DNA from: Tulasnella sp. 424
Taxonomy: Eukaryota > Basidiomycota > Agaricomycetes > Cantharellales > Tulasnellaceae
Direction of reading: 5' to 3'
Assembly (NCBI GenBank): GCA_019633425.1
Contig: WSUB01000012.1
Span: forward strand, 62,001-126,000
Length of the DNA: 64,000 nucleotides
Positions 12,247-58,781 of the stretch are shown here, piece by piece. Made by a program: the position numbers and the translations under genes. The notes under the pieces are model-generated. The model saw only the letters and a list, made by a program, of their open reading frames with translations. It ran no database searches and was not told the DNA's origin. How positions within the stretch are numbered: position 1 is the stretch's first letter; every line of letters starts with the position of its first letter.

Positions 12247-14179
12247 ATGGGCAACTCGGGTTCTGGCTATTCAGTGGTCTGTAGTAAATGAAAAGGAGAA
12301 CGGGAAAAACGGGGATTACCTCCATTCCTGGACAAATATTTCAATCTGGCCTACGGCAGCTCTGCAGCTCACCCCCGACACGCGCGTCACCTGGAGCGAA
12401 CGACGACACCAGACTCTAATAGCCTCGCCCCAGGTTTCCGAAAACGCCTTGCGGAGTCGGCGCGACTTGTCTTCACCATCCTATCCAAAGCGTTGCGAAG
12501 TCTTCACGCTGAGGTCCGGAAACCTGGTAGCTCGGGATCAGATGCGACTCCGAATACTTGAAAAGCTTTCCTTCCTTTCTTTCAATCAATCCGGAGCACG
12601 TCGAGAAGTAGCCAAGCCTGACTTTGTCGTATTGGTAGGTTGGACGCGACGGATTGCTTCTCCCCCCCCCCCTCCCTTACATTTTACTGGCTAAATTGAT
12701 CAGATTTTTATCCACTACGCGAACTGGAGATGGTCTAATAACGAAACGATGCAGCTTGAGGCCACCAAGAACGATATTCGACTGGTATTGACCTTTTTGC
12801 GCTGTAGGTACATCTAATGATGTAAAAGTCCAGATGGGGGTTGACATTCGTGGCTCGGATGCGATTGCATCGTCAGACCGTCATGGAGACAGGTCCAAAA
12901 CGTGGAGATTTCTCCTTGACTTTGACTGCCAGTTTACAGACTGCGAGAACGTCACGGCTTCACTGCCAACGATGTCTCCAACGCGAGATGCAATTGTAAG
13001 GAGTTCACCGATGTTCGAACACGCGGTGTTGATCAGTCGTTATACAGCTCGGTTCCATCGGAGAAGCTAGTAGTACTGGGCGTTCAGGATTGGTCTATTG
13101 TGAGCTTCCGTTTGGAAGAACTAGATCCGGGAGGCTTATTCTCTTTCAGATGGGGGACACTGCGAGAACGGGCGAGACGGCGTCTCGTGTAAGTTCAACC
13201 CTTCCTCAGTGATCAATTCAGCCCTAAAATACGTGGCCCGGGTAGTTTTGGAATCCAACGACGCGGAAAACTTATTTATGTATCATAGCTGCCCAGAAGA
13301 TTTGTGGACCGAGTCGCGGTCGTGTCAGTGCACTTTAAGGCCCTCCCCATTTGCGATGCTGACCTGAGGAACAGACCTAGTTCCTTTCGATGCTCAACGC
13401 ATTTATGGAGAGGTACGCTCTGCCACCGCACCAGGTCCTGGATTGGTGACTGATTGCTTAGTCCCTAGGATATTTTGGCCTGCTTGCCTTCTCCCCAAGA
13501 CCCCAACGTCGTATATACCGTACGTTCAAACCATCTTGAGGAGGAATACCCTCACTAACCTATTTCTCCTTTAGTTCGTGTTTGACGTATGTCCCATCCC
13601 ACGGTTGGCATTAGCAGAATTGACGTTCCTTCAACTCAGGCATGCGCGAGCGAAACGCTACTAGGTATGCAGGTTTTTCTACTTGTAATATGATAATGAT
13701 TGATCTGAGACGTGCTGACCTCGAGCGAAGAGCTAGGTTACAGATACGACGAGACAGGCGTGCACGCTCCTCCAAGTAATACGCCTCTTCATGATATGCA
13801 GGCCCAGATTGTGAGCTTCACCCGCGGTTTCAGGGCTCCAGGATCTGATTTCAGCCCTTTTCGATACCAGATTGCTGTGTCTGCTGCACGGAGGGACGAG
13901 CTTGCTGGGACGTTAACAGTCAGGGGCATTCACGACCATGGGGCTTTAACCCACTATTTGCTTCGTTGCTTGTCAAGTACGTTTACCAGGGGAGAGTTAA
14001 CGAGCGAGTGTTGATATTCTCCCTTAGAGCGCTTTTGTTTTCGACCCTCGCCACTTTGTTTGGCGAGATATCTCAACCGAAAATGCGCGATGAGGGACCA
14101 GCATCCTTCCGTTGCATCAAGGCGGCCCCTAACAGGAGCATTTAAGCTATTACCAAAATCGTCACACAACATATTCTGA
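12247..14179 (+). CDS. metacaspase-like protease, array copy 1
   Basis: Fifteen exons join to 370 aa: 12247-12280, 12368-12526, 12612-12634, 12704-12803, 12877-12995, 13048-13099, 13150-13188, 13222-13323, 13375-13412, 13469-13519, 13575-13586, 13640-13664, 13710-13810, 13871-13976, 14028-14179. In order: first strand DFVVL then IHYANW; NDIRLVLTFLRC helix; F-L-L-D-F-D segment; P-T-R-D-A-I; VYYGGHC with catalytic His166; FVFDACASETLLD with catalytic Cys245, then an L-G-Y-R-Y segment like the L-P-Y-x-Y of yeast Mca1; IAVSAARRDELAG; GALTHYLLRCL; RRPLTGAFKLL at the end. These match type I metacaspase landmarks (peptidase C14) without the usual Pro/Gln-rich prodomain. Metacaspases cleave after Arg/Lys, usually with calcium; specificity here is unknown. 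The first two exons are tentative; the rest is supported by alignment to the other copies. Confidence 0.85.
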
Positions 14180-17154: not shown

Positions 17155-19040
17155 ATGCCACTCTTTACCTCATTTGTTGACGCGACCCGGAGGAACCCCG
17201 GGACTTTGTTCGAGGCGTCGAAGGATCTGGTGAAAGGGAGACTAAGCAAAGTCGGGTATGTACTCGTTCTTTTATAGAATTCTGGAAGAGCATGCTGTGA
17301 CCGACGTTTAACCGCTGATGCCCATTTTGATAGCCATCACGTCCTTGTCGCTTTCAAAAAGCTAAAACCGGTTGCGGGAGCGCGGGTTCGATGGACGACA
17401 GAAGTTCGAGGGCCGGCTAATCGACTATTCGTTGTCCTGGTGAGCGGGGTTGACTAACTGTGTAGGTTCAGGTTTGCAAGAACCGCTGATCTATATAATT
17501 CTGTGCTCATAGGTGTTTATTCAGCACGAGAACTGGGTACGAGATAGTAATGGAGAACCAATGCACCTGAACTCCGTTAGAGACGATCTTGAGCTGTTGT
17601 TATCCCACTTGGGTTGTACGTAACCAAAACATCGTCGTTGGGTGAGCGCTGGATCTGATCCATTCCCGAATATTTATGATAGATCGTCACGACGATGAGC
17701 AGAGGACGTGGTACTTTCTACTAGATTTCGATTGTATTTATACCGATCCAACCGGAAAAACACAAGTCTTGCCGAGAGTCGAACCCACGAAAGATGCCAT
17801 AGTAAGCTGAGCGAAGACGCCCCACCGCGATAGCTCACGTCCTCTCCATAGCTATATACGTTAGAGATAGCTGGGAAAAATGACGGGTCGGGTCTAGTGT
17901 ATTGTGAGCTGTTTCTTGGTTTCGTCAGGTGCAGTACAACTGACGTACCTGGGGTTTCTGCAGATGGCGGGCATGGCGAACGTGGTCTGCCTGGATCCGG
18001 AGGTCAGACTCGTATACTGGAGGTTCGACTTTGCTGCTTACACAGTCGATTCTGTAGAATTGGTTCCTTCGGGACGTAAACTTATCTACAAGGAGGTCGT
18101 CGAAGATACCTCAGGAGCAGTAACGACTTGTGAGTAGCTATCTTCTAAACGTGTAGTCTTAGAAGTGCCGATTGGTTTGCTCCGGTCTTTCAGATCTACT
18201 TTCAAATGACGCCAAACGGATCTCCAGCGAGGTGCGAGTGAAATACCTGTTTCTTGCCTTGATTGTCCTAATCCCCTGGCCGAACAGGAGCTCTTCTCAA
18301 GGCTTCCGGATAACCTACGTCCCCAATCTGCTATTACTGTAAGCCACCTGATTCAAAATTTGGGCAATACGTCACTCACGAAACTGGACATTGACAGGTT
18401 TGCCTCGATGTAAGCCTTTGCCTCCTCGAGATTGTCGTACAGAAAGGCTTATAGTCATGGCAGGCCTGTCACGCAGAAGGACTTCTAAGTGAGGCGTTCG
18501 GGGCATCTTTATCGCCTATCTTTGCTAATTTGGTTTGTAGCGTCGGCGGGGAATTTACCGCACGTCTACGACGGCTCAACCGGACCTGGAGCCCATCAAG
18601 TCGTTGGTCAAGCGCAGAAATTATCTTGTCAGCGAGTAAGCTATATATTCTACCATAGCTACATCGATGGCTTTGTTTCAACGGCCTTTTGACCAGGTAG
18701 TTATCACGGCTGCCCGAGTTGGTGAGGCTGCTGGGACCGTGTTTCCCTCGGCATACTACAAACCTGGAGCCGTTCTTCACGGCATTTTGACATGGTTCAT
18801 GTCTTCATGGCTATCGAGTGAGTCATCATGCTGCTCGTGTTGCTGGGCTCAACGCGCGATCAACATTAACCACTGCTTTGTGGGGCAGAATATCCAGAAG
18901 CGACAGCGGCGAATGTCGCTCAGAGGCTGAATTATATTTGTGGAACTTACCCAGAGAATCAACAGCACCCCCGGATTGCTGCTCGATATCCTTTAACCGG
19001 ACCGTTCCAACTGCTTTATGAATCAAGCCCGTCGCTCTGA
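17155..19040 (+). CDS. metacaspase-like protease, array copy 2
   Basis: This copy gave the cleanest map: 14 exons at 17155-17255, 17334-17439, 17513-17615, 17683-17801, 17852-17903, 17964-18002, 18046-18129, 18194-18231, 18288-18338, 18398-18409, 18464-18488, 18541-18635, 18697-18817, 18889-19040, giving 365 aa with every junction in phase. Landmarks: FVVLVFIQHENW; SVRDDLELLLSHLGC; PTKDAI; GLVYYGGHG with His164; FSRLPDNL; VCLDACHAEGLL with Cys237; VVITAARVGEAAG; ARYPLTGPFQLL. The order and spacing equal those of a type I metacaspase p20/p10 unit (compare I-N-Y, N-D-A, S-G-H-G, D-S-C-H-S-G and G-A-M-S in yeast Mca1). It keeps the classical GHG after the His motif, whereas most other copies have GHC. 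Predicted soluble cysteine protease; role unknown. Confidence 0.9.
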
Positions 19041-22000
19041 TTGTAATGCAAGACCTAAGAACCAAGCATCTCAAGAAAATCTGTAAAAGCCCTCCAACTG
19101 CTTCGCCTTGGCCAACGACTTCCTCTTGATCATCGCGTACCAGTTCGACGCTGCTAACGCAAAGTATTTATATATATATATATATCTAATGAATGATGTA
19201 TTAACGTACGGAAATGAATATGGACCCTCTGTCGCCAAGGTATGGGTTCTGATCGCGTAAGATCTGTACGAAACCAATTTTGACACTTTTGTGTCTTCAC
19301 ATGCAGACTTTATGCCCAAGCACTTTCATAGCCCTTTCTGAGAATTCAGCTAGGTAGCAACCTGAACACATGGTATTTTCTGTCATATCTGGACAATAAT
19401 CTGTCGCGCACAACTTGTAACGTTCCTTCAGCTGTGGCTGCGTGACAGATGCCGGGAGTAAACCCTTCGCATCACGGCTCCGGTCAGCCATCCCGATAAT
19501 TTGGGGTACCAGACCAGCTACAATGGTCACCCTGTACTAACCTGGTCCCCGAATCATTGTTCGGAGGTAGCCTGTCGGTTCGCCGTCGTCCTAACCACGT
19601 GGCGGCTGTTAGAATTCCGGCAACGACAGCAACGCCAGTTTAGGTGGAACGGCGGTCGGCGTCCCCAGCGCGGGGGGGAGAGGCGAAAAGAAGTCCAAGA
19701 TCGTTAAGTACAAATAAATTACAACGGCGCAGGCTCTTCCCCGAGGGCCCTGCAAATCGTTCTGGACCGAAAGGATGCAATACCTTCCTCATTCGGCTCG
19801 ACTTTTCATGCGAAGTTTTGATCAACAGGTTCCCTCGGCGGATCTAGGCAGCTCCAGCAATTGAGGGAACGAAGTATATTTGTGGGTGCATTCATTTGAA
19901 ACTCCCGAGGAACCCGGGGCTGGATTTGTTGCGGTTGGTTTGTGTGTGCACCGAATCGCATAAGCCACGTGTGGCGACAACAATTCAGATAGGCTCCGTT
20001 ATTCTTCTCGTGGTGAATCAAATTCTAATCATTTGAGGGGGGGTGTTAATGCGCGGGGTAAACCTCAAACGGTAGGGGAATGGGATTCGCGCCGTATCCG
20101 CCAGATTCCGCTATTTTGAGGCCCTGATCCCAGAGGGTGACCAGATCAGGAAGGAGGCGCGGATATCTTCAGTGCCAAGTTTGAAGCATGAAAAGATCCG
20201 TCGAGGCTTCCCGATTCCAACTCCTCATGCTCATTGCTGATATCCGTGTTGTCATTTCACTGTACGGATGGCAGCAGGTAGCTAGCAACACGAGATCACG
20301 GGTTCAGTGCACGAGTGCACTGATCACGTGTTACCTGAACCGTGGGTGTTGTGAGGCTCTAATCATTCCGACCACGATTTCACCGAATTGGGCGGAACCT
20401 ATGCCTCGGTTGACTTCCAGTCATAGCTGAGAACGAGCGAAAGAGACTTTCTATTCTAACATTCTCCCTATCTAAAACCCAGCCGATTTTACTTCCAGAA
20501 GCCTCCTCCTGAAACTCTAGACTTGTGTAAGTTCGTGCTGAGTAAATCGTATATATAGAGGAGAGACCGAACGATCGTGGTCCATGTAGTTTTCAAGTGT
20601 GAGGACGTTGTTGATGATCCTCGGTGGGGTTCTTCGTGACTGCTCAGGATGTGGAGATACATGCATCAATATTCGTAAAATGAGTGAGATTTTCGTTCCA
20701 ATCTAGCCTGAGATCTATTCTGGTGTGGTGGTTGAAATAGGCACACATCGAAAGTATGAGAGTGTCGTTGAGCAGCACACGGTCCGTCTTGATCTAGCTC
20801 ATGCTCATGGAAGTGACTCCCCTCCCCGAGGATCCTCGATGCGGAATGAAGACTGGCTGGTAGCTCGTCTGCTCGTCCCTGCGTAGTGAAAGGCTCCCAG
20901 CTTACTACAGCCAACAGTCTAAATCCTCAGCCTCCGGAACCGAAATCCTGGACCGTTCAACGGCAATGCGGCGGGTAGCGATGACCTTGGGTCTCTTAGT
21001 CATGGCGAAAGAGCAGAATATGAGTCGATTTTCCCGCGTATTGGAGGGAAACGACAAGATCAAGCGTCTAGTCCGAGAGGGGTTCGTGGGGGGTTCAATC
21101 CGTCGTTAGAACTTGGGCTAACCTGCCCGTAGGCTTGTAGAGATGAGGCTGGTTTGAAATGCAGGCATCTCCACCACTCTTTACAATAGACTATTCGAAT
21201 ATAGAGCCGAGACTCGCTGAGTACCTTTCGCAAAGCTTGCGGGGAGTGGGGTGGAACTAACGTAGACTGCTTGCGCTGCTGATGCTTGGCCGGGCTGAGT
21301 GGAGCCACGGAATCTCGTGCTGGTCACTGAGTACGGATCTCTTTCGGATAGGTGGCGTCTCTATCAAGTTGTTGAGGATTTTCGCATCTCAGCGAGGAGA
21401 GTATGCCGTACTAAGTGATGGGAGTGCGGGCTGAGGGCTGCAACGCAGACTTGTATCCCGAGGACGTTCTGACCACTGTCTTCAATCCTTCAGACGAGTA
21501 ATAATGATATGAAGTAGAAGGAGTGGAAGGTCGAGCCGGGCATTGAAACGGTCACGTCAAAATCAAATCATTCGCGCGTGGCGCTCGTTCCAACGAATCG
21601 AGATCGGTCCGAGTCCAAATCGCCGTCTGGGTATCTCCTCCCTCTCCACTATCTGCAAATGATTTCTTCCTCCAGCAATACAAGGCAGCTTGCGCGATAA
21701 TGTATGGTCTTGCACCATTCCGCAGCCTTTGACTTTGCTTGGAAGCCGTCGTCGGTCAAGCAACCCCAGCGAGACTCTCGACCCACTGCAACGCAAGATT
21801 TCCATGCAAGCCACCGCAAGCGTGCACGATGTGCCCGTTCCGAGCGGTCGCTTATGCGTGCTCCGCTTGTTAGACAGCTTCCTCCGCCAACTGATCAAGA
21901 GCAAACTCCATTCGCGTTCCCAATGGAAGGACGCTGTCAACTCCTTGCAACATAAAAACAGGTTCTCGAACCTGTTTGGCAGTGCCCAGCGGCCAGGTAG

Positions 22001-24973
22001 GCCATTGGATTGTAGCCGGGCGAAGTCGTTTCGGGGGTCACATCCCAGGACGATTCACCCAGTAGGCTAGGGCATGGCTTCCAGCTCCGAAAGCTGGCGG
22101 TTGGTGGCAAACGTATCCAGAGACCCTCTGCCTCAGTGCCAGTTACTCTGAATAGCTTCAAGATACGAGGACAGTCCTGGCTATCGCGCGCAAGTCCAGT
22201 GCGCAACACGGCGATGAAGGGGATCACGGCGGGAATGTGAGAACCCTGGCAGTTGTCCGATGCCCTGACCTAGGTTTCCCGCTTGCCAATCAGTCGAGTA
22301 CTTGACCCGTCTCTCGTTAGTTATGGAAAATTTAGGAAGTAGTTGGATGAGGATCTAGCGGAAGGGGAGGCTTAAGTGCTTCAGCCACCGAGAGCTGGCT
22401 CTATTCCCCATCTTTGTAGGACAGCGTCGCTCGATGGAAGTGGCCAGCGTTGCTGACCACGGACTTCGCTTGGTTCCTCTCGAATTGGCAATTCGGGTAG
22501 ATGACATTGGTTTCGCAAGTCCGTTCCCTGGTGTGCAGCAGTCATCTTGCCGAAATTAGATGAACCCAGAGGCTGGCATGACGCTATTTCCGACCGGCCG
22601 GAGCGAGCTTTAATTCACCGCCCTTCTGGCGACGAACCGCATCGAGGACGAGGTTTCCAGAATGATTGTCCGTCGTCCCCAACGCACTGCGACCGCGATG
22701 AACGCAGCACGATGGAGTATGATTGATAATCGCTCGACCTCTTTGTCATTCTCCCTCCATGGATCGTATGTCGTTCCTCGTTCTATATTAGACGATATTT
22801 AAAACTGTGTGCGCAGCGTGCTCTGCACTTTCGCTTTATAGGCCACGCCGACACTCCTTCACGTCGAATTATCCACCAACTAGCGAGCGTGCCTGAGACA
22901 TCCAAGGTCGGAACGGGGTCTGAGAATCCGAAGCGAAATATCCATTTCGCCTGAGTGACCTCGATGTATGAAAGCAGCGAAATGGACAAGAGCGCAAGTG
23001 GGCGATTCCGAACCTCGATAAAATGAAGGACAACGACTGTTTAACCTTCCACAGGCTGCCAAAAGCGCGAATCTACTATTACTGGTACAAGGTCGCCGTG
23101 CCTTCATTCTTGATTGTACCTCGTGGCGTGGCTTTGGGTCTGGGATGACTAGAGCTTGTACACTTGCACGGCGTGTGGTGGGGCGGACCCGATGAAAAGC
23201 GACTGGTACTTACAAGCCGATGTAGCTGCGCCTATGCATAGGAGGTGACGGGCACAGCGAACGGTCCAGACGTTCTCATTGGTCGATCTTCATATTGGCT
23301 CTTATCTTGCAGAAGGGTGACAGGTTCAAGGGGCTACACAGTCCGCGACCAGCCATTCCAAGTTAGATTGTTTCCACGCGCTGCGGTGACCTTTGAAGCC
23401 AGGGTGAATTCGGCGACGTCTTCGAAGCGAAGGACGGCGCAACGGCGAACCACATGTGAGAAATCCATCACGACCAACCACCATGCGGTGCCCTCATCAC
23501 CTACAAACTTCAGAACTATGCCGTCACTTACTTCAAAGTAACATCGGAGGCCAAATTTTCCTAGACATACTGTCCTGGTTCCCAAGTTAGCGGCTCGGGG
23601 GGAGGGGAGGCTGTCACACCTGATGATGGCCCTTCTAGCCTAAGTAGCTCTAGTCCGGGAATACAAAGCAACCGTGCAACGTCATGGTTACGACTGTCGG
23701 CACCGAGCCAGCCGAACGATTGCACTCGGCATCTGTTATGTTCGCAGAAATGTTCCAAACTGACTGGACACATTCTGCAACGAGATGGTCTCCTGACGAC
23801 ATATATCTCTGGACTATTCGGAGGGAGGTGTATGCCATATAAGCCACACTATTGTCCTTCCAAAAGTTTGCGAATTCCTAATCGCTCTTCGGGCTGAGGC
23901 CACATCAACGAGAAAGGTCGTGCTCGAGGCCTCATTCTTCGCTTTCGATTTAGGATGCTTTGTGGGCGTTGGCGATATGCTTGGTGCCTCCTTCGGGCTC
24001 TAGGAGTTGGCAGATGCGTGTCGGGCTAGCAGATGTCATTCCACGTCGAGGCTGCGAGGTCCTTGAAGCGAATTGATATCCCCCTCCCACCAAGAGACCA
24101 TCATTCCACCCAGAGGTTCAACGAACGATTTCATTCTGGGAGTAGGCGAACCGGCCGCCTTGATGTTTCGCGTCCAATTGGTAAACGGACACCTGACACA
24201 TGAAAACGCCGAATGGGCACGGACCCCGCCCTCAGGGATAGACGGAGGAACGATGTGTCCATCGGCGATCGGATTTAGGCCTGAACACGCATGCAGCGCC
24301 TTTATTCACCATCTTTGGTCCTCGGCACGTTTTGGGGAACGCTCGTCAAAACATGGGACAACACGTCTCGCAGAAATCCCGCAGAAATTCTCTTGAGATT
24401 TCCCAGGGTGGGATTCGTACCCGATAAGTGCTGGCTGGCCCCACGAGGATATTGCCTTCAACTGTATATAAAAATGCTGTTGATTCCTAGTCCGCTCAAG
24501 GAGCTGGAGTTGTCCAGCTCCTTGCCTCCCTCCCCCCGGCCCCAACTCAGCCCAACCTGGGAGACCATCCTCATGCAGTCGAAATGTCGATCGTAGTTCT
24601 CTCCCATCGCTCTGCCTCCCCTACCGAACCGGATTTCTGCATGTCAATCTCGTCGAACCGATACGCAACATCGCTATTCTCCCCGTCTGAAGTTCTCATG
24701 GGTTGGACATCACGAAGGATGGCAGGCGAACGACCAAGCTTTTATACCAGAGAGCAAGACTGTAGCATTTGCTTTTCGTTTTTACGGAGGCTAGGCGCAT
24801 AGCAGTATGAAAGTATTTTGGTCGTTTAGATCGTCGAGGGAGTCGGGTGTACGTGTGACATTCGGTGTGACAACCTCATCGGTCGTTCTACTCGACGGCA
24901 AACACAGGGTGCGGATCCCAGGACAATCCGGAGCTAGTCTGGATCCAAATAGCAGATTAGCGTCCTCATAATC
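19041..24973. other. non-coding/decayed part of duplication unit 1
   Basis: About 5.9 kb upstream of array copy 3. From about 19320 it aligns by eye, with gaps, to 29345-33160 and 36240-42187. No intact gene was found. On the minus strand a short reading frame at 21003-20914 begins M-T-K-R-P-K-V-I-A-T-R-R, and a segment at about 20905-20700 begins V-S-W-E-P-F-T-T-Q-G-R-A. The latter has a partial counterpart in unit 3 (about 37227-37040), so a decayed gene is possible. A (TA)n run lies at about 19168-19185. Confidence 0.45.
24800..24827 (+). promoter_or_regulatory. conserved upstream block of type 1 copy, unit 1
   Basis: A TAGCARTATGAAAGTATTTTGG-like block lies about 150-175 nt upstream of the ATG of array copy 3 and recurs in front of the other two type 1 copies (33002-33028, 42011-42038), while much of the surrounding sequence differs. 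It could be a promoter or 5' UTR element; conservation is the only evidence. Confidence 0.4.
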
Positions 24974-26827
24974 ATGGATCATCAGCAAGCACCCTCCAAT
25001 GCCTCCTCAGCTCTTTTCTCCGCAACGGGAGTTTTGGGATTCATTCCACTTCAGTTTGATACTCTCCTTACAATTCTCGAAAACCGGACTCGTCGAATTG
25101 GTCGAATTCTCCCCCGCCTCCCACAACTGCGATTCAGAGAGCGAAACAGACCCAAGTGGACTAGCGAAGTACGTGGTGGCACAGGACCCAAGGACTTCGT
25201 GGTTGTGGTAAAAAAAGACACTAGAACTCAGTATACTTCCTGGAATCTTAGCGCTAACGTCCGTGTTTTCAAGATTCTCGCACATTATCCCGCATGGATA
25301 ACGACTGTCAATGGCAAAGATAAGAACTTGCAACTCGACACGGTGTGCAACGATCCTAAAGTTCTCCTTAAAGCACTTGGTTGTCAGTACTGGATGGTTT
25401 CGCGTTCAGCCCAAGAACGTTATGCCCACTCATATGATCGTTTCACCTCCGGTCCTCTGCCAGACGCACACGGCGACACGTCCCGGCGATGGTATTTCGT
25501 TACAGACTTCGAGGTAGACCATAAGGACATAAACGGTGTAGTAAAATCGCTACCACGCGCAGTGTACCCCGGGACAGAGACACCCGTTTTGCCAACGAAG
25601 GGGGGAATTGTAAGACTGGTCTTTAGACAGCCTCAAACGCGCCTTGCTAATTAAAGCTGTATAGCTTGGTATCCTACGGGAGGCCTCCGCTGGAGGAGGA
25701 TCCGGTTTCATTCATTGTACGTAATTACCATCTGGTCCCGAACCAACTTCTGCTCACTTGGTTTTCGGCCGGTTCAGGTGGTGTACATTGCATGTATACG
25801 ACCGCTGGAACATCTCGTAAGTGTACTTGATGCGCAAACTTTAAACGCGTGTTAATACAATTAGCTAGATATCACGTTGGTCGAACCTACCGGGGAAGTT
25901 CGATACGCGCAAACCCCCAACGGCCCCTCCATCAAGGAAGCCTGTAAGTGCGTTTTTCGACCCGAAGCTGAATATACCTTTAACTGGTATCGCGTAGTTA
26001 TTGTTACTATCGATGGGGAACGACTATATGGCTGGGTAGGGCCTTCTTGAGGAAGATGTTTGGGATAGTGCTAACTACATGATTAGGAATTCATAGACGC
26101 TCTTGGAGACGGTACAGACGAGCGATGCGGCACGACGCTAACGGTATATCCGGATACTCCGTACTAGTTCTATTTCTAACAATCTTTCCTTCTTCGCGCT
26201 CCGGCAGGTGTCATTGGATGTAAGCCATTGATTCAATCGGGTTTTGCCACACCTACTCACGTGTCTTTTAGATGTGCAACGCGACTGCGTTCCTCGGTAC
26301 GCCATCTCTCACTTTTCTCCTTGACCGTTTCTAATACCGCTCTGTAGCTGGGGTGGTCGGGATGACCTATCAATATCGTAATCCTGATTTCGGCGAAAGT
26401 AACGAGTCCCCCTCTGGGGAAGGTGTTACAACGACGCGGTCCACCAATCAGTTGGTCCGTCGACGAGAGCGTTATTCCATTCATCGCGCTAATCCGAACC
26501 TTCCAGGTTGTGATCTCGGCATCTCAACCCGGCCAACCCGCTGGGACGTGTAATGACTATGGGGCAATGACTTATTTCCTATCGACAGCTCTCATAAGTG
26601 AGGCACACAGTAAGCAATGTTCGTACTCTCAAGTCTCTCGGCAGGGCTCTAACGAATATCGACCAACAGGGGTAGAGGGACTCTCGGCCGCGGACGTCAT
26701 CCGGTTCATCCATGGCAAATGCGAGGCGCGGAAGGAGGAACATCTTCGCCAAACACCTCAAATCACGGCGCGGTACCCGTTGACAGGGAGATTTTGGCTC
26801 CTTCCGGATCCCCACTCCATGCTTTGA
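24974..26827 (+). CDS. metacaspase-like protease, array copy 3 (type 1)
   Basis: Thirteen exons (24974-25207, 25274-25382, 25464-25609, 25665-25716, 25778-25816, 25869-25943, 25998-26035, 26087-26143, 26208-26219, 26272-26296, 26348-26454, 26507-26597, 26670-26827) give 380 aa. The first four segments happen to read through as one 226-codon ORF, but splicing them out aligns the product with the other copies. Landmarks: KDFVVV; ILAHYPAW; DPKVLLKALGC; PTKGGI; GFIHCGVHC with His184; VTIDGERLYG; VSLDMCNATAFLAG with Cys256 and a following T-Y-Q-Y-R like the L-P-Y-x-Y of yeast Mca1; VVISASQPGQPAG; GAMTYFL; QTPQITARYPLTG. The second residue before His is Val rather than Gly/Ala, a deviation unique to this copy. 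Predicted metacaspase-like cysteine protease. Confidence 0.88.
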
Positions 26828-28040
26828 TCATCCTCCCCCCTAAAAAAAATCCGAGCAGATGGACCTGCACTGCAACTTGAAAGGCGATTCGCAGTCCGTC
26901 GAGGACAATATCTCCGGCCTGGGTTATCTCGCTCAGGTACTAGTAATTTTTCGGTGTCATCTCTCTATTATGGTGGATCAGCAAGCCCAACCGTGTTCGG
27001 CTTCGCTCATTCACCGTGACTCTCGCATCGGACTCTACCGACTGGCTCGTCAATGTATAATGTACATATTTGACTCAAAGCACTAGATTTTAAGCCTTGA
27101 ATATTATGAACTGGATGAAAGTTAGCTATAGCGCTAACGAGGCCACGCGAGTCTTGAAGGCCCTGATATAGAGCAATGGTTACGACGGGTTGACCGCGTT
27201 CTGCGCAGTGCCAATCAAAAAGTGCAGCTACGGAGACCTCGAGGTCCCTTCCTGTTCGAGACTCTGAATGCAGGAAATAAGTGGAAATTGCACCCGAAGG
27301 AAAACTACTCCGGTTCGGTCAGCGTGGACAAGACCGCCGATCTCAGTGCATGGAACGCATGTCCTTTTGTCCGCATGAGGCAGAAAGGCTCAGCTCAGAA
27401 CCTGCTGCAAAGGGTTATAGTGTGGTTTAGATGTCTACTTGACCTAGGGAGATAAGCGGCGGATCGACCGGGCTAGGCCAAGCGATATTGCGGCCCTTTC
27501 AAATTCTCAAGCCTCGATCTATTCTGTTGGTTACATCACTCGTTCGTTTGATTTGAGGAAGTCCACAAGCCCGGGTATGTGATCTTTCAGTAGTGGGTCA
27601 ACCAGCACCTAGCCAGTCGCCCCAAGGAACGGGTCGTCCCTTCACATTTGTATCACCTTATCACTCTGACATCTACCTAGGCGATGTGATGTAGTGAACA
27701 CTCTGATCTGCACCAGTATGGAATTGAATGAGCGAAAGACTGCAGCAGCTCCACGCTGCCGCCCAATGGCAGGTTCGGCGGTTGAATTCTTCGAAGTACC
27801 CTTGTCTTTCCAGGTTTCGCTTCTGCGGTTGCTATCCAGAGCCTGCACCCGAGCGACATCTATATATGATCTCCTGTTGCGCTGGAGCAGGTTGCCCACT
27901 GGCATGACCTACGCAGGCACGGAGGGGTTTTCATGACGCCGAGACGGTTGGAAAGCTCGCGGAAGCCACACGAACTCAACGCGGAACAGGAACATAGTCC
28001 TCTCGCATCTTAGTCTCCACCACCACTCTTTCCTTTCATC
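26828..28040. other. intergenic region inside unit 1
   Basis: About 1.2 kb between array copy 3 and the pseudogene. It matches the corresponding stretches of units 2 (35013-35450) and 3 (43989-45818) at several short blocks, including a TCTCCGGCCT block near 26908 and 35092 and the GAGTCTTGAAG block. No gene seen. Confidence 0.45.
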
Positions 28041-42038: not shown

Positions 42039-42187
42039 CGATGGTTTGGATTTGGGCCGTAAGGTGTGGCGTGAGTGTGTGTTCGCTTATCTCAGCGTTG
42101 ATCTACTCTTCGACCAAACGAACAATCGGCATTCGCGGCGGAAATCGCAATTTGGCCTGCCTCTCTAATCGCTTCAATTGAATCTTC

Positions 42188-43988: not shown

Positions 43989-45818
43989 TTCCCTTTATCC
44001 GAGCATGCGAACGCGCACAGCAAAAAAAAACTATTCAAAAGTTGAAACGGCACCTCTCTCAGTCCATCAAAAAGCAATCTTTCCGCCCTCAGTTATATCA
44101 TTTCAAGTGGGCTTTTAGTGCTATCTTTTTTCTTAACTGTCCGATTGGCAAGCACAACGGTGTTGGGCTCTGCTTGTTTCACCGTGTCTTCTGGCACCGG
44201 GCTTTACCGACTGGCTCGTTAATTTATCGTGTACATATTTCGTCCGAAGAGCTATAATTTAATATGGGACGCTGTGGGCTGGTTGTAAACTGGCGAGCGA
44301 GCGAGCGTTGAAAGTCCCGATATATAGCAATGAGCGCGACGGCTTGACTCACTCTCTTCCAGTCGCCCGACGGGAAGCTCCGTGGACGGGGAAACTCGGT
44401 GCTGACAAAGCGAATGTTTGATATTGTTTAGTTCGGGGTTGGCTCTGCTTACGTCACTTTTTCTGTGGCTGTGACCCATTCATTGCTTGGTCCCATTTGC
44501 TTGATATGTCAGCATATCTACACTTCTCTACTTTGTATTCCCCACCGTCTAAATCATGGCCTTTACTCCAGAAATAGCTCTTGTAAGCCAAAGATACACT
44601 ATTAATAGAGCTAGAAAGCCAATTGATAAGATAAAAAGCTGTGTGCTTCGGAAAGTTTCGTCGGCTCAATTGAAGCCTGTACCTCCCCATTTACTAGACC
44701 GAAGCATCGTATTTCACCGTCATTATCATTGAAAAGATCTTTAGTAATGCGCTCATGCTTGAGTCAAGCTGTTGTGACGAGTCTAAGGCCGATGGAAGCG
44801 AAGGTGCTCCGCCTTTGGAGCAGGGGGCCTACGTGTGAACCTAGTCCGCAATGCAACAAACAATAACCAAACATCCGCTTGGTCAGCACCGAGTTTCGCC
44901 CCCGGAGTTTAGCGGCGCTTCCCGTCGGGGGAAAAGTTCGTCGCGCCGCGACCGTCGGGGGGAGTGTGTGCCCGACCGCCCTCCGGGCAGTGCCAAATCA
45001 CGAATACAGCCAGGAGGACCCAGGAGATCCATTCTTGCTTTGAGATTCGAACTCCGCTAGGTATGAGTGGATTGTTGGAAATTGCGATTGGCGGAGAACT
45101 ACTCAGGCTCGATTCTGGCATACGGAACGCTAGTCCTTTGCACACCTGAGCTAAAAGGGCATAGCTCAACACTAGCTAGAAAGGGTTATAGTACCAGTAC
45201 TATTGCTGATATCTGGCCTTGTCTCGTGTAGATAAGGGGCGGACCAACCGGGCTAGGCCAAGCTTCGGGTAGCTTGCGTCACCGTCATATGCCCCTATTC
45301 CGCTGGGTATCAATCGCTTGTTTGATTTTAAAAGGCATAAACCCCGGCTATGTGATCTTCCAGTAGTGGGGCACCCAGCACTCGGCCCCCGAGGAATGAG
45401 TTGTCCCTTCACCCTATCAGTCTGATGGCTAGCTAGGCGCTGTAGCCTGTGACGCAGTGAACCCTTTGATTTGTGCCGGTTCGAATTCTAATGAGCCGAG
45501 ATCCACGCTTCCACTCGGTCCCAATGGCACGTTGGGCGATTGAGTTCTTTGAAATACCCTCGTCCCTCCAGCTTCGCTTCTGTGTCACCTATCCAGAGCC
45601 TGAACCCAAACGACGTCTCTCGATGATCTCCTGTTGCGCTGGAGCAGGCTGCCCAGTGATCCGATCGATCTATGCAGGCACGGAGAGGTCTTCACGAAAT
45701 GAGACGGTTGGAAAGCGTGCGGAAGCCGCACGACCTCAACGTTGAATAGGAACATCGTTCTCTCGCATCTCAAGTCTCCACCACCACCCTCTCTTTCATT
45801 CCTGACTGCTCGTTAATC
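43989..45818. other. intergenic region inside unit 3, with TIR element
   Basis: About 1.8 kb between array copies 6 and 7. It holds the inverted-repeat element at about 44351-44970. The part from about 45230 matches 27440-28040 of unit 1 (upstream region of the type 2 gene), including a CCGGGCTAGGCCAAGC block at 45248 and 27468. No gene seen. Confidence 0.45.
44351..44970. mobile_element. MITE-like element with terminal inverted repeats
   Basis: The left arm (44388-44431, GAAACTCGGTGCTGAC...ATTGTTTAG) is the imperfect inverse of the right arm (44857-44901, CAAACAATAACC...GTCAGCACCGAGTTTC). Pairing can be followed outward through CCCGACGGGAAG (left, about 44366-44377) and CTTCCCGTCGGG (right, about 44919-44930) and possibly to CACTCTC/GGGAGTGTG at the ends. 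The interior is AT-richer than its surroundings and has no transposase. Units 1 and 2 are continuous at the same place (27200 and 35360), so it is an insertion specific to unit 3. The target-site duplication and superfamily could not be determined. Confidence 0.7.
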
Positions 45819-47793
45819 ATGTCGTTCACTAAATGGTTTGGTCAAAGTGCACTGGAGGCACTTCAGGGGCTGGCAAGATCCTCCAAGGCGGTGCTGAAAG
45901 GCAAGCAGGTCGCTACTGAAAGCAGGTAAATAAGCTCCCGCTACGGGTTGCCCTGGTGTATGATTGACCGTTCGCATATATTACGTATACGATAGCGCGA
46001 GCGGGCATCTCCAAAACGTACTAACTTCGTCGGTGAAACCACGCTTTGTTGTCCTGGTGAGCCAAGGACGAAGCATCAGGACAGCAATAGGCATCTCATG
46101 CGGCCGCTTCTACCCAAACCAGGTTTTTATTCACTACACAGGCTGGTACTGTGGGAGCCGGGAGAACCCCAAGAGCATGCAGCTCGATTCCGTCCGCAAC
46201 GACTTCATCGAAGTGCTCAAATATCTCCGCTGTACGCCGGCATTCCCTCACAGCCAGCTTGTGAACCCAATACTGAACATGGGGCCATACCTTAGACCGC
46301 CATGATGACGAGAAAACGATGTGGCGTCTTCTGACCGATCTCGATTTAGAGTACACGGACGAGGCGGGAAATGTCAAGCTTTTACCGACAACGTACCCGA
46401 CAAAGGAAGCGATAGTAGGTCTAAGTTTTGCACATCTAGGTTATTCGCTCACACATTCCTCGTAGCTCGACGCACTGACGGAAGCGGGCGAAACCAAGGA
46501 TTCGGGGCTCGTTTACTGTACGACACGTCTTCCGGTCGCGTTATGTGACCTGGCGGGCTGAGCTTGCGTCACTCCTTAGTTGGCGCGCACGGCGAACATG
46601 GACCTTCCGGAACTAGTGGCAAGTTTCTTCCCTCTTCTTTATCCACACCAATTACTGAATACAGTCTCTATTACGCTGGACTTCCCTACAGTCTTGCAGA
46701 AAAGCGGCCGAAGAACCTACTATAGCGTCAACGTGCAAGGGTCGGCTGAGTCCAGGAGCTCCTGTCCGTGACCTTTATGTGACATGGAGATGAGTCCTAA
46801 CGAGTTGAATTGTTCTAATTAGTCCTTATCACCATCGACGGGGAAAGGATATACGGCGAAGTAAGCAATACTCGGACGTGTCTCTCATGTATCCAGGTCT
46901 AACCTTGACCGACTCACCAAAGGACATTTTCTCTCGTCTACCTGAGGACGTTGCCGCGGAATGTGTCCATACGGTGCGTGAACGATTTTTAACAAAAAGT
47001 TGAGGTCACTTATGGGAAATATGCGGTCAGGTTGCACTCGACGTAGGTCCATATTTCCCAATCATCGGTGATTTGCTTTCATGACAGTCTTTCGCGAAAC
47101 ATACAGACATGTAGCAGCGGGGGTTTAGCTGGTCAGTAATTTCACTCTTCAGGATTAACACCATTCTGATCCCTAGAGCAGAGGCGGCGAAAAATTTATG
47201 CCGGCGTTATGACGGCAAGCGCATGAGCCGTGCGTCGAGTCCAGAGGTGCCACCGGTAACAGGGGCCGCAAACGCAGTACAGAGATCCTCCAAGCAGCTA
47301 GTGAGTCTCTGAACGCTCAACTACGACATAATACTAACCATATCCCATCAGGTAATCATATCGGCTGCTCGGGAAGGAGAGATGGCAAGGGCCGTGCGCC
47401 CAGGTGGCAAGGCTGCGCGCGAGCACGGAAGGCTGACATGGTATATGATCCACTGGCTCGAAAGTACGTGGATATAATTTCTGGTTCGGCGTCATAGTAG
47501 CCGGGCTAAATATCGAACTGCTAGAGCATCCCAACGCAACAGCCCAAAACCTTGCTGAAAGGCTTCGCTACCGGCTTACGGATATGGCTCCGGAGGGAGA
47601 GAAGCAACACCCTGTGATTTTGGCTCGCTATTCTTTGACTGATTCTTTCGAGCTCCTTCCGGGATTGCAACGTCGATCTCAGGATGAGAGCGGATCCGTG
47701 AGACGTCTCCTTCCACTCCTTCGACCCCTTCGACCCCCCCTCACGATTCGCTGGTTCCGCCCGCCTCTTCTGGCCAGCGGCCGAAGGCACTGA
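45819..47793 (+). CDS. metacaspase-like protein lacking the catalytic Cys, array copy 7 (type 2)
   Basis: Fourteen exons (45819-45925, 45997-46057, 46123-46231, 46296-46414, 46466-46517, 46580-46618, 46665-46763, 46823-46860, 46923-46973, 47031-47042, 47088-47110, 47153-47300, 47352-47463, 47525-47793) give 412 aa with all junctions in phase. Landmarks: RFVVL; FIHYTGWY; SVRNDFIEVLKYLRC; LVYFGAHG with His153; ITIDGERIYGE; FSRLPEDV; microexon VALD; VIISAAREGEMA; ARYSLTDSFELLPG. At the catalytic exon, where other copies read D-x-C-x-[AST], this one reads VALDSFAKH: Phe231 replaces Cys, and that exon is 2 nt shorter, compensated by the phase of the next exon. The intron at 46619 has a GC donor (G|GCAAGT). 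The C-terminus carries an extra Arg/Pro-rich tail of about 40 residues. Best read as a pseudo-protease or an early pseudogene. Confidence 0.78.
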
Positions 47794-49933
47794 GTTCCGC
47801 ACCGGCAAACCACCAACTATAACTTAAATCTCTCGATTCGCTCCTTTTTTTTGTACACTAGTGCTCGCTCTGGAACGAGTGATACCTTTACATTCTTTGG
47901 GTTCGCCCTAATATCATACTTGAAATATTGTAGCTGCCGGCGTAGAACGCTGAACTATGCCATTAAAAAGCTAGCGTAAAAGCAACAGCACAGTGCAGCA
48001 AGTCACAGTTAGCCGCTGTGATCGGCAGTTGCGTCGGCCTCGCGTAAACCTTGTTGGGAAAAGCACCAACTGGGACATCCGTGGGCTCGGAAGCTTCGTT
48101 CTCCCGAGGCCTTGCCAATCCCGGTCTTGCATCTCCCAGCGATTAGATCTCTCTGCAAGACGTGTATTGCATTGCCTATAGCGTCAGATGGAGGCATCAC
48201 AGAGCATCTGATCTCGAGGACCGATCGACTACTCTGGTTCATTCCGATCGCGCGACGTCATAGATTAGACCGCATTGCTTCATAGCTTCTGAGGTTTTGA
48301 GAGCGATTATTAACTGCAACTTTAACGTTTATTATGGTCGATGAGAGGACCAGAAACCAACCGGACTGCGGATGTTTGCTGTGTCGATTTGCCTCCCTAC
48401 CTCGTGCTCTGCATGGGTCAACGGTCTCCCTGGAAGTCTTTCACGCGGCTAAATGATCTGCACAATCGTTGAATCGACATGATATGCTAGATAGCGAAAG
48501 CATTCTACACTGAATACATCGTGTAACGAGGGGCTGGGTGGAGGGATGCTCTGCTAGATCAGCTACACTAGTGTATATACACATAGTGACGACACACAGG
48601 TCGGTTGTATATGGGCTGTTCGCCTCAACCCCTGATACCTGCAGGCCTGCGTAGGTAAGCGCCACGGAAGGCTGAATTGCGGGATAACGTGAGGTGCAAA
48701 GGTGGTGAGGCACCTTGTACGTCAACGACCATCCCCCACCTCCGAAACACTACCCCTCCATCTGCCCAGTCCCAAGAGTCGAAATTCAATATTCGCATCG
48801 TCTCGATTATTCTCAGCAAAGCCCACTTCCAACCCAGTTCTCGAGTTCATATAAATGTGATGGCTCTTTTGTGGACATGAAGACCCTTACCGACGCCCAC
48901 CCTCCTTCGGTTTCTTCTGACAACGTTGTCCAGCGTTCGCCCGTCAAGACCTGATGCTTCCTCGAGCTCACAAGCAGTGTTTCATCGGGGGAAGCCCAAA
49001 AAAAAGCAGCTTCTGGTTGTCTGGAGTCAGTTTTGGCAGGTTCCAAGACGACCGATTCACTTTCCCTCGCGACGGCCTCTCTCAAAACGCTCGAGTTATC
49101 CCAATCGTGAAGGATAAGGATCAATCCTGGGAGGGGCGTGAGGCTCATACGATATCCTGGAGTTTCTCGTTGCGGAACGATTCCCATATCCTTGGCCTCG
49201 TGTTCCGAATGAGGACTCGAAATCGCCTACGAGGCGAACACGCGTCCGAGCCGCCCTCCGTAACTTCTTTCTCAGTGCACTCTAATGGACAAGGCGGTTC
49301 CTGGGTGGTTCATCAGTGGGTTGTTGGGAATCTTCGAAGGCTGGGGCCGTCTGAGTGGAACCGGCCTCTAGCGGAAATAGCGCATTCGTCTCCCTGCCTC
49401 ACTGCCGATACTCGGCCCAGTTTAGAGACAATCTTCGACTAATCTTGGGAAATCCAAAGGGTCCTTCCCTGTAGTTCGGATAGTTTCCCGTTGGAGAGTC
49501 GACTTTATAAAACTGGGGCCAAACGCTTTGGCGATTGCATTCCCCCTCTGTTCAGACCTTTGTCCAATGCTTCCCCCGCCATTCACAAGTCCTCCTCCCT
49601 CCCTCCGAAGATCATCCTCCCCCGTTGGCGTGGCTTGGCTTGGTGCCGTCGGCAAATCTCAATGTCGTTCGTCAACATGATCAGGGTTGTAACCAGCTCC
49701 CAGGTCTTGGATCGGAGATGAGCCATCCCAGAAGACCAGATCCGCCCCGCCCCGTCGGCAGTAGTACACGAAGAGAAATTGTGACAACGAGCCGATACCA
49801 GAGTCGCAGAAGTGGACGGTGAACGTCCAGCACAATGCTTGTTACGACGCTCCCACAGTCGGGTTCGCTTTCGGTGCCGTGACGGGTGTCGTCAGTCTAG
49901 CTCAAAACCCTCTCGAGTTGCTCGTCTCTCATC
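47794..49933. other. intergenic region, no supported gene
   Basis: About 2.1 kb between array copies 7 and 8. An open frame at 48954-49442 (162 codons, plus strand) and an overlapping one at 49187-48813 (124 codons, minus strand) have no recognised motif, and neither extends by splicing in a convincing way. Confidence 0.4.
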
Positions 49934-51845
49934 ATGCTCTCCAAACCCAATCATCACGATTACAGTGCCAACGCCTTCAATACTGTATCAAGGTTGCGAA
50001 CGGCAAAGTCTCCGACCATCAGGTAGTATAAAGTTCAACGGCTTATTTGGCTCATTCGCAGCGTCGGCTCACCGAACTTTTTCCTCTCCAGTCGGATCTT
50101 TCCCCTTCTTTCATCGCTCAAGCACTTCAGTAAGCAAAGACCGCAGTGGACGCGTCAGTTCCGGGGAGACCAAGGAGAGAAAGATTTCGTAGTGCTGGTA
50201 AGCTTTCGTCTTGCAATTCTTTGCGGGGCATCGGCGCCTCCGCGAGCCATGAGACGCCTAACAAAATCTCGCCTCTAGCTCTTCATTCGGTACAAAGGAT
50301 GGATATACACTACTTCGTCTAGAAAATCGGAGAATTTGGAGCTCACTTCAGTCCAGAACGACCCTTACATCTTGCTCGATTACTTGGGGTGTGAGTTCTT
50401 GGGGGTAGAGAAACCGCTTTCTGCAAAAATGGTTCCACTCACTCTCGCTTTCTGTTGGCTATCACCAAAAAGTCCGCCACGACGATACCTCTAGGAATTG
50501 GTACTTTATAATGGACTTCGACTTGGAATATACCGATTCGGAGGGCATCACTAAAGTCTTACCTCGTACCGCACCAACCAAAGATGAACTCGTGAGTTGT
50601 AACCTCAATGAACCCCAAAACTCTTCAAACTCATGAGATTTTTTTAATTCATTTTAGCTCCGGACAGTTCGTGAAGCTACTAGGAGTGGCACCTCAGGCT
50701 TTATCCATAGTATGTTCTCCGCAGCAGAGACAAGGACAGCGGAGTAGTAACCCTTTGTGAATCTACAGTCGGAGCGCATTGCTTCTACAGCTACCCAGGG
50801 ACCTCTCGTGAGTATTTTTCGGCTGGTACTACATTCTTAGCGTGCTTATATCGTTGTTCAGATACCAAGGTCGAAGGCGACACCACAACGTACTGGGAAA
50901 CGCCAAAAAGACAATCAGGTACAAAGCAAGCATGTACGTCGACTTGGTGCTTCCCCTACTTATCAACCGGAAACTCACCTCCCGCCTACCAGATTTCCTT
51001 TCCTCAGACGGCCTGAGGGTGACTGGGGAGGTGAGATGGCCGCAGCATGTTCTATTAAATGGGTCTAAAGTCTTCCACCAGGAATTGCAATCTTGTCTCT
51101 CAGACAGTCCCAAGGTTAGCCGAAAGGCAACCATAACGGTAAGCCTGAAGCGTTTCATCAGTATCTTGTGTCCTGAAAGGCTGATCTGGGTCCGTCATTC
51201 CAGATGTTTTTCGATGTACGGATGCTTTCGCTGTGGTGGGACAGGACTTGATGCTGATACCTTACCTCCCCGATCCGTAGATGTGCCACGCCGATGCTTT
51301 CTTCAGTAAGCCAACCCCTGGTTCTCCTTATAAATGCACTTGTTGACCCCCACTTTCTTGAATAGAGGACGACGTCGTCGACCTACCATGCGTTTACACC
51401 GCTGCGCAAAAGAACGTGGAATGGAAGAGACGGACTCGAAAGCAATTGGTAAGTAGTACGAGATTCAATATTCTCGCACTACAGCTGAACTGGGCAATGG
51501 TTTTCTCCCAGATTGCAGTCTATGGGTCCCGAGCTGGGCAATCTTCGGGCTCGTGGAAGGACGCTGGTTATGAGTATGGCGCCGCAACATTTCTCACGGT
51601 TGCGTTTCTCGGTGGTATGCGCCTTTTCCCTCTTGCTTTTGGTGCCGGGCTCCTAAAGCCACCCATCGAATATTGGCCCTTTGAACATAGATCGTCCATC
51701 TGCCTCTCCGGTTGAACTTGTCAGGTACCTCAATGCCATATGCAGCAGACGTCCACAAGAAAACCTTCGCCAGAGCCCTTACATCGCCTCCCGATATCCA
51801 ATCCCTGGACGCCTTCGACTCATTTCTGGTCCAGCCGCTGTGTAG
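49934..51845 (+). CDS. metacaspase-like protease, array copy 8
   Basis: Fourteen exons (49934-49992, 50062-50197, 50279-50390, 50473-50591, 50658-50709, 50769-50807, 50862-50933, 50993-51030, 51082-51138, 51204-51215, 51281-51305, 51366-51448, 51512-51611, 51691-51845) give 352 aa. Landmarks: QWTRQFRG then KDFVVL; FIRYKGW; DPYILLDYLGC; WYFIMDFDLEYTD; PTKDEL; FIHIGAHC with His163; MFFDMCHADAFF with Cys234; a D-L-P-C-V-Y stretch equivalent to the L-P-Y-x-Y strand; GAATFLT; SRYPIPG. The first exon and its atypical GTTGCG donor are tentative; a different start exon further upstream is possible. From 50062 on the structure is strongly supported by exon-by-exon agreement with other copies. Catalytic dyad present. 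Confidence 0.82.
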
Positions 51846-56804: not shown

Positions 56805-58781
56805 ATGCAACAGCGACTTGAACGCCTTCCACTTCCACTACAGTTGGCGGCCCCTACCACACCGAGAAGAACTAAGATGACCGGCTTACAGTTAGTCTGA
56901 TGGTATCTGTTTGTGGAGGACTTGGCCGAAGCTCATGTAATATTCCAATCCGCCAGCTGGGTCTTCCCTCTTTTCACCGCTGCGCTTGGAAACCTCTCCA
57001 CACTCGGGCGAGCTGGAAAACGCGGAAATGGCACCCCACAAGAATACATCATCATAGTAAGCGCTTGAGGAACTGTTATTCAAAGGATCTTTTGAGCTAA
57101 TAACCGCACTTTCGCATAAGATCTCTTTGCATTATGAGGGGTGGAAGGGCCATCCCAACGGAGAGAACATGCAACTGGAAGGCGTGAAGCACGACGTCAA
57201 AGCTTTGCTTGACCACCTTGGTTGTAAGGCACCCCCGATATTTTTTCCGTTCCCCGCAGCCTCGTTTGACCTGAACGTAACCAGACCGACACGACAACGC
57301 AGATGGACGCCACTGGGACTTCCTCCTGGATTATAACCTCGATTACAAGGACCCATCGGGCACAACTAAACGATTGCCACGCACCGGCCCCCCTACCAGG
57401 GATAACATAGTTCGTTTTCATGCATTCAGTGCTTCCCAAGAGTACACGTGATCCATCCTTCACTCCTTTCGCTCTTATCCAGTTGGAAACGCTTCAGGAA
57501 GCCACTTGTAAAGGCGCTTCAGTTCTAGTTCACTGTGCGTCTATAGCGAAGCAATTATGGACCAGCAGCTAACTTGCCCTGACCATAGACGGCGGTCACT
57601 GCCACTATGCAGCGCCGGGAGCATCAGGTCTGTACAATTTGCTTCATCGCCCTTTAAGGCTATTTAACATGCGTTGTAGAGCTCGAGCACAGAAACGACG
57701 GCATTGTTTACAAGGAAATCGAGGATAGTCCAGGGGGCCTAAACGCAGCATGTATGATGCTTCCTTTTCGGGTTCACGGCAGAATGCTTGCTAATCTGTA
57801 AGGTAGTCCTTATTTCCTCCGATGGAAAAAGGGTATATTGGAAGGTGCGGGAGTCATTAACATGAGCCCTCGTGAGCAAGGCTAAGACGTTGGGCCAGGA
57901 TTTTTATTCATCTCTTCACGGCGCATCAAAGAAAGGCTGCGCTTCCGCTATCATGGTATGCCATAATCTCCATCTACTATATTCTTGAGGATGATAATAA
58001 CAGTCAACTTGGTCTTGCAGGTAATTCTCGATGTAAGGCTTCCCGGCATGAACTTGCAAATCTCCTCACGACTGACGTCCTTTGTAAAAGACTTGCAAAA
58101 CCGAGGCTTTTATCAGTAATTATGTTCCTATAACGACAATTTTCATATGACTAACAGCGACTCAATTCCTAAGAGGACTTTGGCAACCTCGCCATCATCT
58201 ACGATGATGGATTAAGAGAAATCGCTCCGGACGCCCCGATCGTCTCCACGCCACCCCTTGATCACCTGGTCGGTCATAAACTAATATATACAAAAGTCCT
58301 GAGATTAATGTATCCAACTGCCATTCAGGTTATAGTCACTGCGGCCAGAGCGGATGAGCTGGCTTGGACCTTTGATAACTGTGGCGTCTTGACGTACTTC
58401 CTGATACAATGCCTTAAAGGTGAGCCCCACTAAGTACTAAAGCTTCTTTTTTATTTGATGTGCAACATATACTTTGAGAGCTAACAAGCGAGGGGCAAAA
58501 TAGATCACCCGGAAGCTTCAGCGGCTGAGGTCGTCCAATACCTCAACAGTGACTGCCGAAAACAACCGGACAAAAAGAAACTTCAGCGTCCTCGCATCTG
58601 GTCGCAGAATCGTCTGCAAGGTCCATTTCGGCTTCTGCCCAGAAACGCCTCGCCCGCGGCAGACAGCTCTCCACCCTTCTCCTGGCGTTCTTGGCTTGAA
58701 GCTTGCCTCGACTCCACGGCCCCATACGTGCTCGGCCTGCAAACGCTCCAGCCGGCGGCGCTTTCTATGATGCTTTTATAG
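56805..58781 (+). CDS. metacaspase-like protease, array copy 9, with C-terminal extension
   Basis: Fourteen exons (56805-56890, 56957-57056, 57121-57223, 57285-57409, 57483-57534, 57589-57627, 57680-57751, 57807-57844, 57899-57955, 58021-58032, 58091-58115, 58174-58268, 58329-58419, 58504-58781) give 390 aa. Landmarks: EYIII; SLHYEGW; VKHDVKALLDHLGC; LLDYNLDYKD; PTRDNI; VLVHYGGHCHY with His159; ISSDGKRVYW; VILDTCKTEAFI with Cys230; VIVTAARADELAW; GVLTYFLIQCL; GPFRLLPRN. The last exon runs about 55 residues beyond the usual end into a Ser/Pro/Leu-rich tail. The first exon (GTTAGT donor) is tentative but has the same phase as in array copy 2. The acceptor of the exon at 58174 is AAG, chosen because the upstream CAG at 58157 leads to a stop. 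Dyad intact. Confidence 0.84.

Follow-up and report, generated by a model that had tools for sequence, protein, structure and literature searches.

The array and its genes

This study concerns a stretch of 64,000 nucleotides from the genome of Tulasnella sp. 424 (Basidiomycota, Cantharellales), hereafter called the window, which spans bases 62001-126000 of contig C24 (476,324 bp) in a genome of 46.8 Mb. Between about 12.4 and 58.8 kb of the window lies an array of eight genes on the same (+) strand with intact spliced frames, together with two degenerate copies. The products of this array are almost certainly metacaspase-like proteins. A same-strand run of ten related loci, eight open and two dead, had been read from the bare letters (the original prediction), and it was borne out by splice-aware alignment and by DNA comparison within the window; the end coordinate then given, 58781, is indeed the stop codon of the last gene, g57.

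The eight genes differ in the motifs that surround their catalytic residues. The first, g12 (12428..14179, 13 exons modelled), carries GGHC and FDACASE and shares 55% identity with FS837_012759 (P0025) from Tulasnella sp. UAMH 9824 across 255 aligned positions. It is followed by g17 (17155..19040, 14 exons; GGHG, LDACHAE), which is matched by the database protein P0007. Three genes of 13 exons each correspond to NCBI proteins: g25 (24974..26827; GVHC, LDMCNAT) to FRC04_001436 (P0015), g33 (33162..35012; GGHC, LDMCNAS) to FRC04_001437 (P0011) and g42 (42188..43988; GGHC, FDMCNAS) to FRC04_001439 (P0023). Moreover, g42 is 98% identical over 177 positions to P0024 from Tulasnella sp. 425. The array ends with g46 (45819..47793; GAHG, LDTCSSG), whose exons were modelled from 45768 with a likely ATG at 45819, g50 (49832..51845, 15 exons modelled; GAHC, FDMCHAD), 58% identical to P0012 over 354 positions, and g57 (56964..58781, 13 exons; GGHC, LDTCKTE), 44% identical to P0010 over 291 positions. 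The N-termini of g12, g46, g50 and g57 are uncertain.

Splice maps and micro-exons

When the six-frame open reading frames (ORFs) of the window were compared with each other, paralogous exons appeared among the matches listed. One copy was spliced by hand through a three-way DNA alignment and served as seed for a splice-aware profile aligner; this single protein recovered the same exon chain at eight loci of the + strand. Profile scores at these loci range from 662 to 1166, against 101.8 for the best minus-strand match and 104.5 for the best match in a single mononucleotide-shuffled copy of the window. The eight final models run without internal stop to a terminal stop and their introns, of 50-87 nt, are all of the GT-AG type; 10 or 11 of these introns, depending on the alignment, are common to all eight genes. 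Exon lengths recur in the same order (49/52, 36-43, 59-78, 38, 51/57, 12 and 25 nt). In each intact gene, the 12-nt exon ends with the Asp of the D-x-C motif and the next exon, of 25 nt, holds the catalytic Cys. In g17, these two micro-exons lie at 18398..18409 (+), encoding VCLD, which is also encoded in P0007 and has an equivalent in all intact window copies, and at 18464..18488 (+), with a length of 25 nt that the other seven genes and the canonical metacaspase gene of the genome also have.

These splice maps have outside support, from P0007 and from the NCBI protein P0011. P0007, an uninterrupted protein of 361 aa on a public contig of 1,721 bp, aligns with g17 without gaps over all its 361 residues at 96.4% identity. 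Since the g17 coding region covers 1,886 bp with 13 introns, the best interpretation of this contig is a transcript. One exon junction of our models was corrected after P0007. P0011 and g33 agree at every one of 289 residues (100%), and P0015 and P0023 match g25 and g42 at 90% and 87%, with gaps where the gene models differ. Finally, P0001, a protein of 426 aa from a contig of 1,573 bp, shares 68% identity with g46 along 415 positions, a value obtained after the g46 exons at about 46.6-46.8 kb had been refitted with P0001 in view.

Altogether, the eight stop-free models and the gap-free match to P0007 support the micro-exon structure that had been proposed for these genes. The accompanying statement that none of them gives a long ORF is nearly right, except that a 233-aa open frame spans the first exons of g25 with its introns retained. 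By contrast, a proposed L-G-C motif proved to be an artefact of the unspliced frame: once spliced across a phase 1 junction, the residue that follows L-G or L-R is Tyr or Phe, as in P0007.

The deposited gene models were less fortunate. P0015 retains intron 2 of g25 and P0023 is devoid of one exon of our g42 model, so that two of the three NCBI proteins of the array (P0015, P0011 and P0023) appear misspliced with respect to the present models; none of the three carries a precomputed Pfam domain. The deposited models of two further relatives, P0009 and P0017, also seem broken at the exons that hold the Cys or His. Active-site exons as short as 12 and 25 nt can thus conceal a protease family from automatic annotation.

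Relationship to metacaspases

Several lines of evidence support the metacaspase-like identity and the order of motifs put forward in the original prediction. In profile searches against the PDB, metacaspases were the top matches, and in these alignments the dyad of the array proteins falls on that of yeast-type Mca1. With the Pfam family PF00656, an earlier model of g46 scored 27.8 bits against a cut-off of 21.4; four of the eight members gave any match at E<=10, the score being reported for g46 only. A direct Pfam search with two hand-spliced proteins returned nothing at E<=1, which we ascribe to low sensitivity and to models that were still partly rough. The motifs follow the order N-terminal region, large subunit, small subunit, and no proline-rich prodomain was seen.

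Structure prediction, a check suggested at the outset, was carried out on P0007, which stands in for g17. The AlphaFold2 model built from a 26-sequence alignment reached a predicted local distance difference test (pLDDT) score of 81, with low confidence over residues 1-52. It adopts a predicted caspase-haemoglobinase fold, and its best Foldseek matches are type I metacaspases. A first run with P0001 and nine sequences (pLDDT 40.2) was not used.

The genome possesses one canonical metacaspase locus, at 369.9-371.2 kb of contig C68, which is the sole match both of the Pfam C14 model and of the canonical protein itself; its core was spliced by hand. Across eight alignment settings, four or five of its nine introns coincide in column and phase with introns of all eight array genes, and one further alignment gave five. 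Two of the coinciding introns recur in every setting: one directly precedes the SGHG/GGH motif and the other lies ahead of the 25-nt Cys exon. If introns were placed at random, at least four would be shared with a probability of 4e-6 and at least five with a probability of 5e-8. The array genes therefore likely descend from a gene of the canonical metacaspase type, as far as sequence and intron positions tell. Giant-virus metacaspases also match the predicted fold in a BFVD search; a viral origin was considered, but vertical descent is preferred, because the array has introns in common with the canonical gene of the fungus.

Compared with type I fungal metacaspases (Yca1/Mca1; MEROPS C14; PDB 4f6o, 7qp0), the array proteins share the predicted caspase fold, an N-terminal extension, the succession of a large and a small subunit, the His-Cys dyad and the S1 Asp residues in N-D and D-x-C. 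They differ by an identity of only about 15% in a structure-based alignment, by the absence of the IVDD aspartates in all eight proteins, by a G[GAV]H[CG] motif in place of SGHG, by a diverged DSCHSG motif and by their many tandem copies. The C68 canonical gene resembles the array in its 25-nt Cys exon and in several introns but, unlike the array, keeps SGHG, IVDD and DSCHSG; the intron that creates the 12-nt exon of the array is absent from it. Plant metacaspases 9 and 4 (8a53, 6w8r) differ in being plant enzymes of type II. As for the other clan CD families, namely caspases, the paracaspase MALT1 and legumain, the sequence and intron evidence points to metacaspases instead.

Catalytic and calcium-binding residues

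The catalytic His and Cys are invariant in the eight window proteins. Among 26 database relatives, the His column holds 23 His, two gaps and one Leu (P0017), and the Cys column 24 Cys, one gap and one Asp (P0009). The loss of His in P0017 looks like a model error, because P0018, identical over long stretches, has it. We consider it very probable that most intact copies are catalytically active.

To compare the binding sites, we placed the residue numbers of TbMCA2 onto the array motifs according to our own assumed correspondence. In TbMCA2, the S1 residues are Cys92, Asp95, Ser156 and Asp211 and the calcium ligands Asp173, Asp189, Asp190 and Asp220, both sets being conserved in Yca1 (PMC4357240). 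Both S1 aspartates (equivalents of Asp95 and Asp211, in N-D and D-x-C) are kept in 8/8 array proteins. The equivalents of Cys92 and Ser156 are kept in none, with V/I/T and Gly instead in all eight. Likewise, Asp189/190 of the IVDD calcium motif are replaced in all (0/8). Asp220 is kept in 0/8 by alignment column, or in 2/8 (g33 and g50) if it is taken as the residue that precedes the L/M-P motif, and the Asp173 column aligns ambiguously. Alignment thus indicates that most of the calcium site has been lost in the array proteins.

Of the 36 tree rows, 17 have Cys and 19 have Gly right after the catalytic His, with four changes along the tree (two readings set by hand). The most variable part of the 26-sequence alignment is the linker that precedes the small subunit (2.7 bits), followed by the post-His loops (2.0-2.3) and residues 311-330 (2.0-2.2). 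Within this variable linker, an R-S-x-[KN]-Q-L stretch is kept in several lineages.

Duplication, decay and selection

All-against-all DNA comparison of the window revealed a triplicated segment (20707..47019, +), with copies at about 20.7-29.0, 30.5-35.7 and 37.0-47.0 kb. Each copy comprises a gene of the g33 type followed by one of the g46 type, the latter being intact in the third segment only. Within the first segment, the g46-like copy (27352..28976, +) retains 68-71% DNA identity to 45124-46986, but frame-breaking indels affect seven of the nine g46 exons compared, and the later g46 exons are unmatched. In the second, it is reduced to a fragment (35354..35660, +), with 80% identity over 188 bp to 46832-47019 and 83% over 72 bp to 44974-45045.

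Within the g25/g33/g42 trio, introns are about as similar (71-79% identity) as coding sequences (73-79%). The ratio of non-synonymous to synonymous divergence (dN/dS, or omega) amounts to 0.34 for g25/g33, 0.30 for g25/g42 and 0.35 for g33/g42, values that indicate purifying selection on these three youngest copies. For the other 25 gene pairs, dS was not computable in 24 and was 2.3 in one. Positive selection finds no support in the omega of the three pairs whose dS is moderate. The array thus changes by birth and death: a two-gene segment was tripled, its g46-type gene decayed in two copies and its g33-type gene stayed under purifying selection. The description of these genes as rapidly evolving is, on this account, only partly right, given the low omega of the young trio and a tree of separate, firmly supported lineages that have relatives in other Tulasnella species or on unnamed contigs.

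The family in Tulasnella

Genome search and spliced models yield a minimum of 22 loci with such a gene structure in the Tulasnella sp. 424 genome: the eight of the window, three more on C24, two on C223, four in a row on C100, three on C128 and one each on C109 and C111. Related copies thus go on outside the window on the same contig, at 54.7-56.5 kb of C24 (opposite strand, last exons uncertain), at 135.7-137.3 kb and at about 352 kb. Twenty of the 22 fitted models are stop-free, and in 19 of these the two catalytic residues are both present; outside the window these intact counts are upper values, because the aligner can bypass a stop by placing an intron. Further matches without models occur on C100, C179, C420 and, weakly, C35, and a degenerate piece lies at 53.3-53.6 kb of C128. 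For this reason, 22 is a lower bound for loci and not a number of working genes.

Some of these loci deserve mention on their own. At 59.8-61.4 kb of C128 (L086, 59800-61450), a stop-free fitted model has its catalytic Cys replaced by Gly (TGNSAGSL) and is a candidate pseudoenzyme. On C100, a second tandem array of four copies (L010, L012, L013 and L015, about 53.4-65.3 kb) reaches the contig end, and its motifs (GGHG, D-x-C-x-SGG, L[PS]YTY) are closer to the canonical ones. Finally, P0010 and L026 (C223, 620 kb) display a long hydrophobic N-terminal stretch, possibly a membrane anchor, unlike g17, g25, g33 and g42 as judged by eye.

Eighteen of the 26 database relatives carry an organism name, and all are from Tulasnella (T. 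calospora MUT 4182 and Tulasnella sp. UAMH 9824, 408, 417, 424 and 425). In two of three protein searches, scoring was confined to the 7,998 candidates with the most words in common, so that relatives outside the genus may be missed. Clustering is probably not peculiar to Tulasnella sp. 424, since relatives elsewhere presumably share contigs (FS837_001555/1557/1558; FRC01_011760/11761; FRC01_000623/624; three T. calospora proteins on a 507,885-bp contig). The tree resolves separate, well-supported lineages, and g12, g17, g46, g50 and the g25/g33/g42 trio each fall in a lineage that also includes sequences of other Tulasnella species or of unnamed contigs.

Discussion

Taken together, these data are best explained by a tandem set of metacaspase-derived, caspase-fold cysteine proteases that would operate without the usual calcium switch, a reading to which we give a probability of about 60%. 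These proteins are predicted to perform His-Cys proteolysis after Arg or Lys, a specificity inferred from the two S1 aspartates that are kept. They would act inside the cell and could be activated by a trigger other than calcium, perhaps through cleavage in the variable linker around R-S-x-[KN]-Q-L. Copies may have divided the labour, differing in substrate or in trigger, and may run regulated cell death during stress, self/non-self or host encounters. A role of the array proteases in cell death or non-self recognition can be put forward as a tentative possibility. Whether fungal metacaspases are true death proteases is still argued.

Three alternatives were weighed. The first is a mostly neutral growth in copy number, in which a duplication-prone segment yields copies without distinct roles that are heading to pseudogenes. 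The two dead copies and the segment in three tandem copies of the window are in its favour, as are the two loci with stops and the one without catalytic Cys on C128, and the similar intron and coding identities of the young trio. It nevertheless appears unlikely, as it accounts poorly for an omega of 0.30-0.35 in that trio, for a dyad invariant in 8/8 proteins, for lineages common to other Tulasnella species and for uninterrupted transcript-like contigs in several lineages.

Inactive members have been described in other metacaspase sets, and the array could likewise encode non-proteolytic or regulatory caspase-like proteins, such as decoys, scaffolds or aggregate binders. Such functions would be coherent with a Cys instead of Gly after the catalytic His in about half of the tree rows, with the loss of the S1 Cys and Ser and of most of the calcium site, and with the Cys-to-Gly locus of C128. 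We hold them to be quite improbable, however, in view of the His and Cys kept in all eight window proteins and of exceptions among the 26 relatives, P0017 (His) and P0009 (Asp at the Cys), that look like gene-model errors.

Tulasnella is known for orchid mycorrhiza. Proteases with an outward target, such as the orchid partner or competing microbes, instead of the fungal cell itself would suit this orchid-mycorrhizal genus (so named in the title of PMC11503967 as well) and the fact that all named relatives in the searches made are from Tulasnella. They are the least probable option; no signal-peptide-like start was seen by eye in g17, g25, g33, g42 and g46.

The calcium-independent metacaspase-derived proteases that we favour stand out by their number. 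According to published accounts, metacaspase genes number one or two in most fungi (PMC13208671), genomes carry 1-4 (PMC1325252), and one is named for U. maydis and two for M. oryzae (PMC9820594). In the literature covered, which leaves most subscription journals aside and was available in part, no description was found of this family or of a fungal metacaspase array, in line with the statement, in the original prediction, that no tandem array of this size and exon structure was known to have been described. The main text of the Tulasnella transcriptome paper PMC11503967 holds no word starting with "caspase" or "C14", and this paper is absent among those pairing "metacaspase" with "Tulasnella". 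We therefore judge the family to be a new, diverged form of metacaspase.

A bolder and rather doubtful proposal is that Tulasnella may have turned a metacaspase into an arsenal of several lineages and more than 20 loci from which the calcium switch was removed. Executioner proteases, and not NLR-type receptors, would then be the diversified, clustered part of a self/non-self or cell-death system. In any case, a single canonical gene beside a large derived set, with dyads intact and the calcium site lost, offers a natural experiment for studying how such enzymes are activated, what they cut and what they do.

Other features of the window

A Pfam scan of twenty other ORFs of the window, unspliced so that intron-rich genes could escape, gave no recognition or NLR-type domain. 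To the left of the array lie ordinary genes, namely an exon of a Tam41-like cytidylyltransferase (2316-3011, -) and a Der1-like protein (4985-5434, +), as well as a retrotransposon gag-like ORF (3989-4489, -) that matches PF03732 at 21.1 bits, under the cut-off of 24.1. Lastly, a head-to-tail direct repeat of about 336 bp with 90% identity occupies positions 37805-38456.

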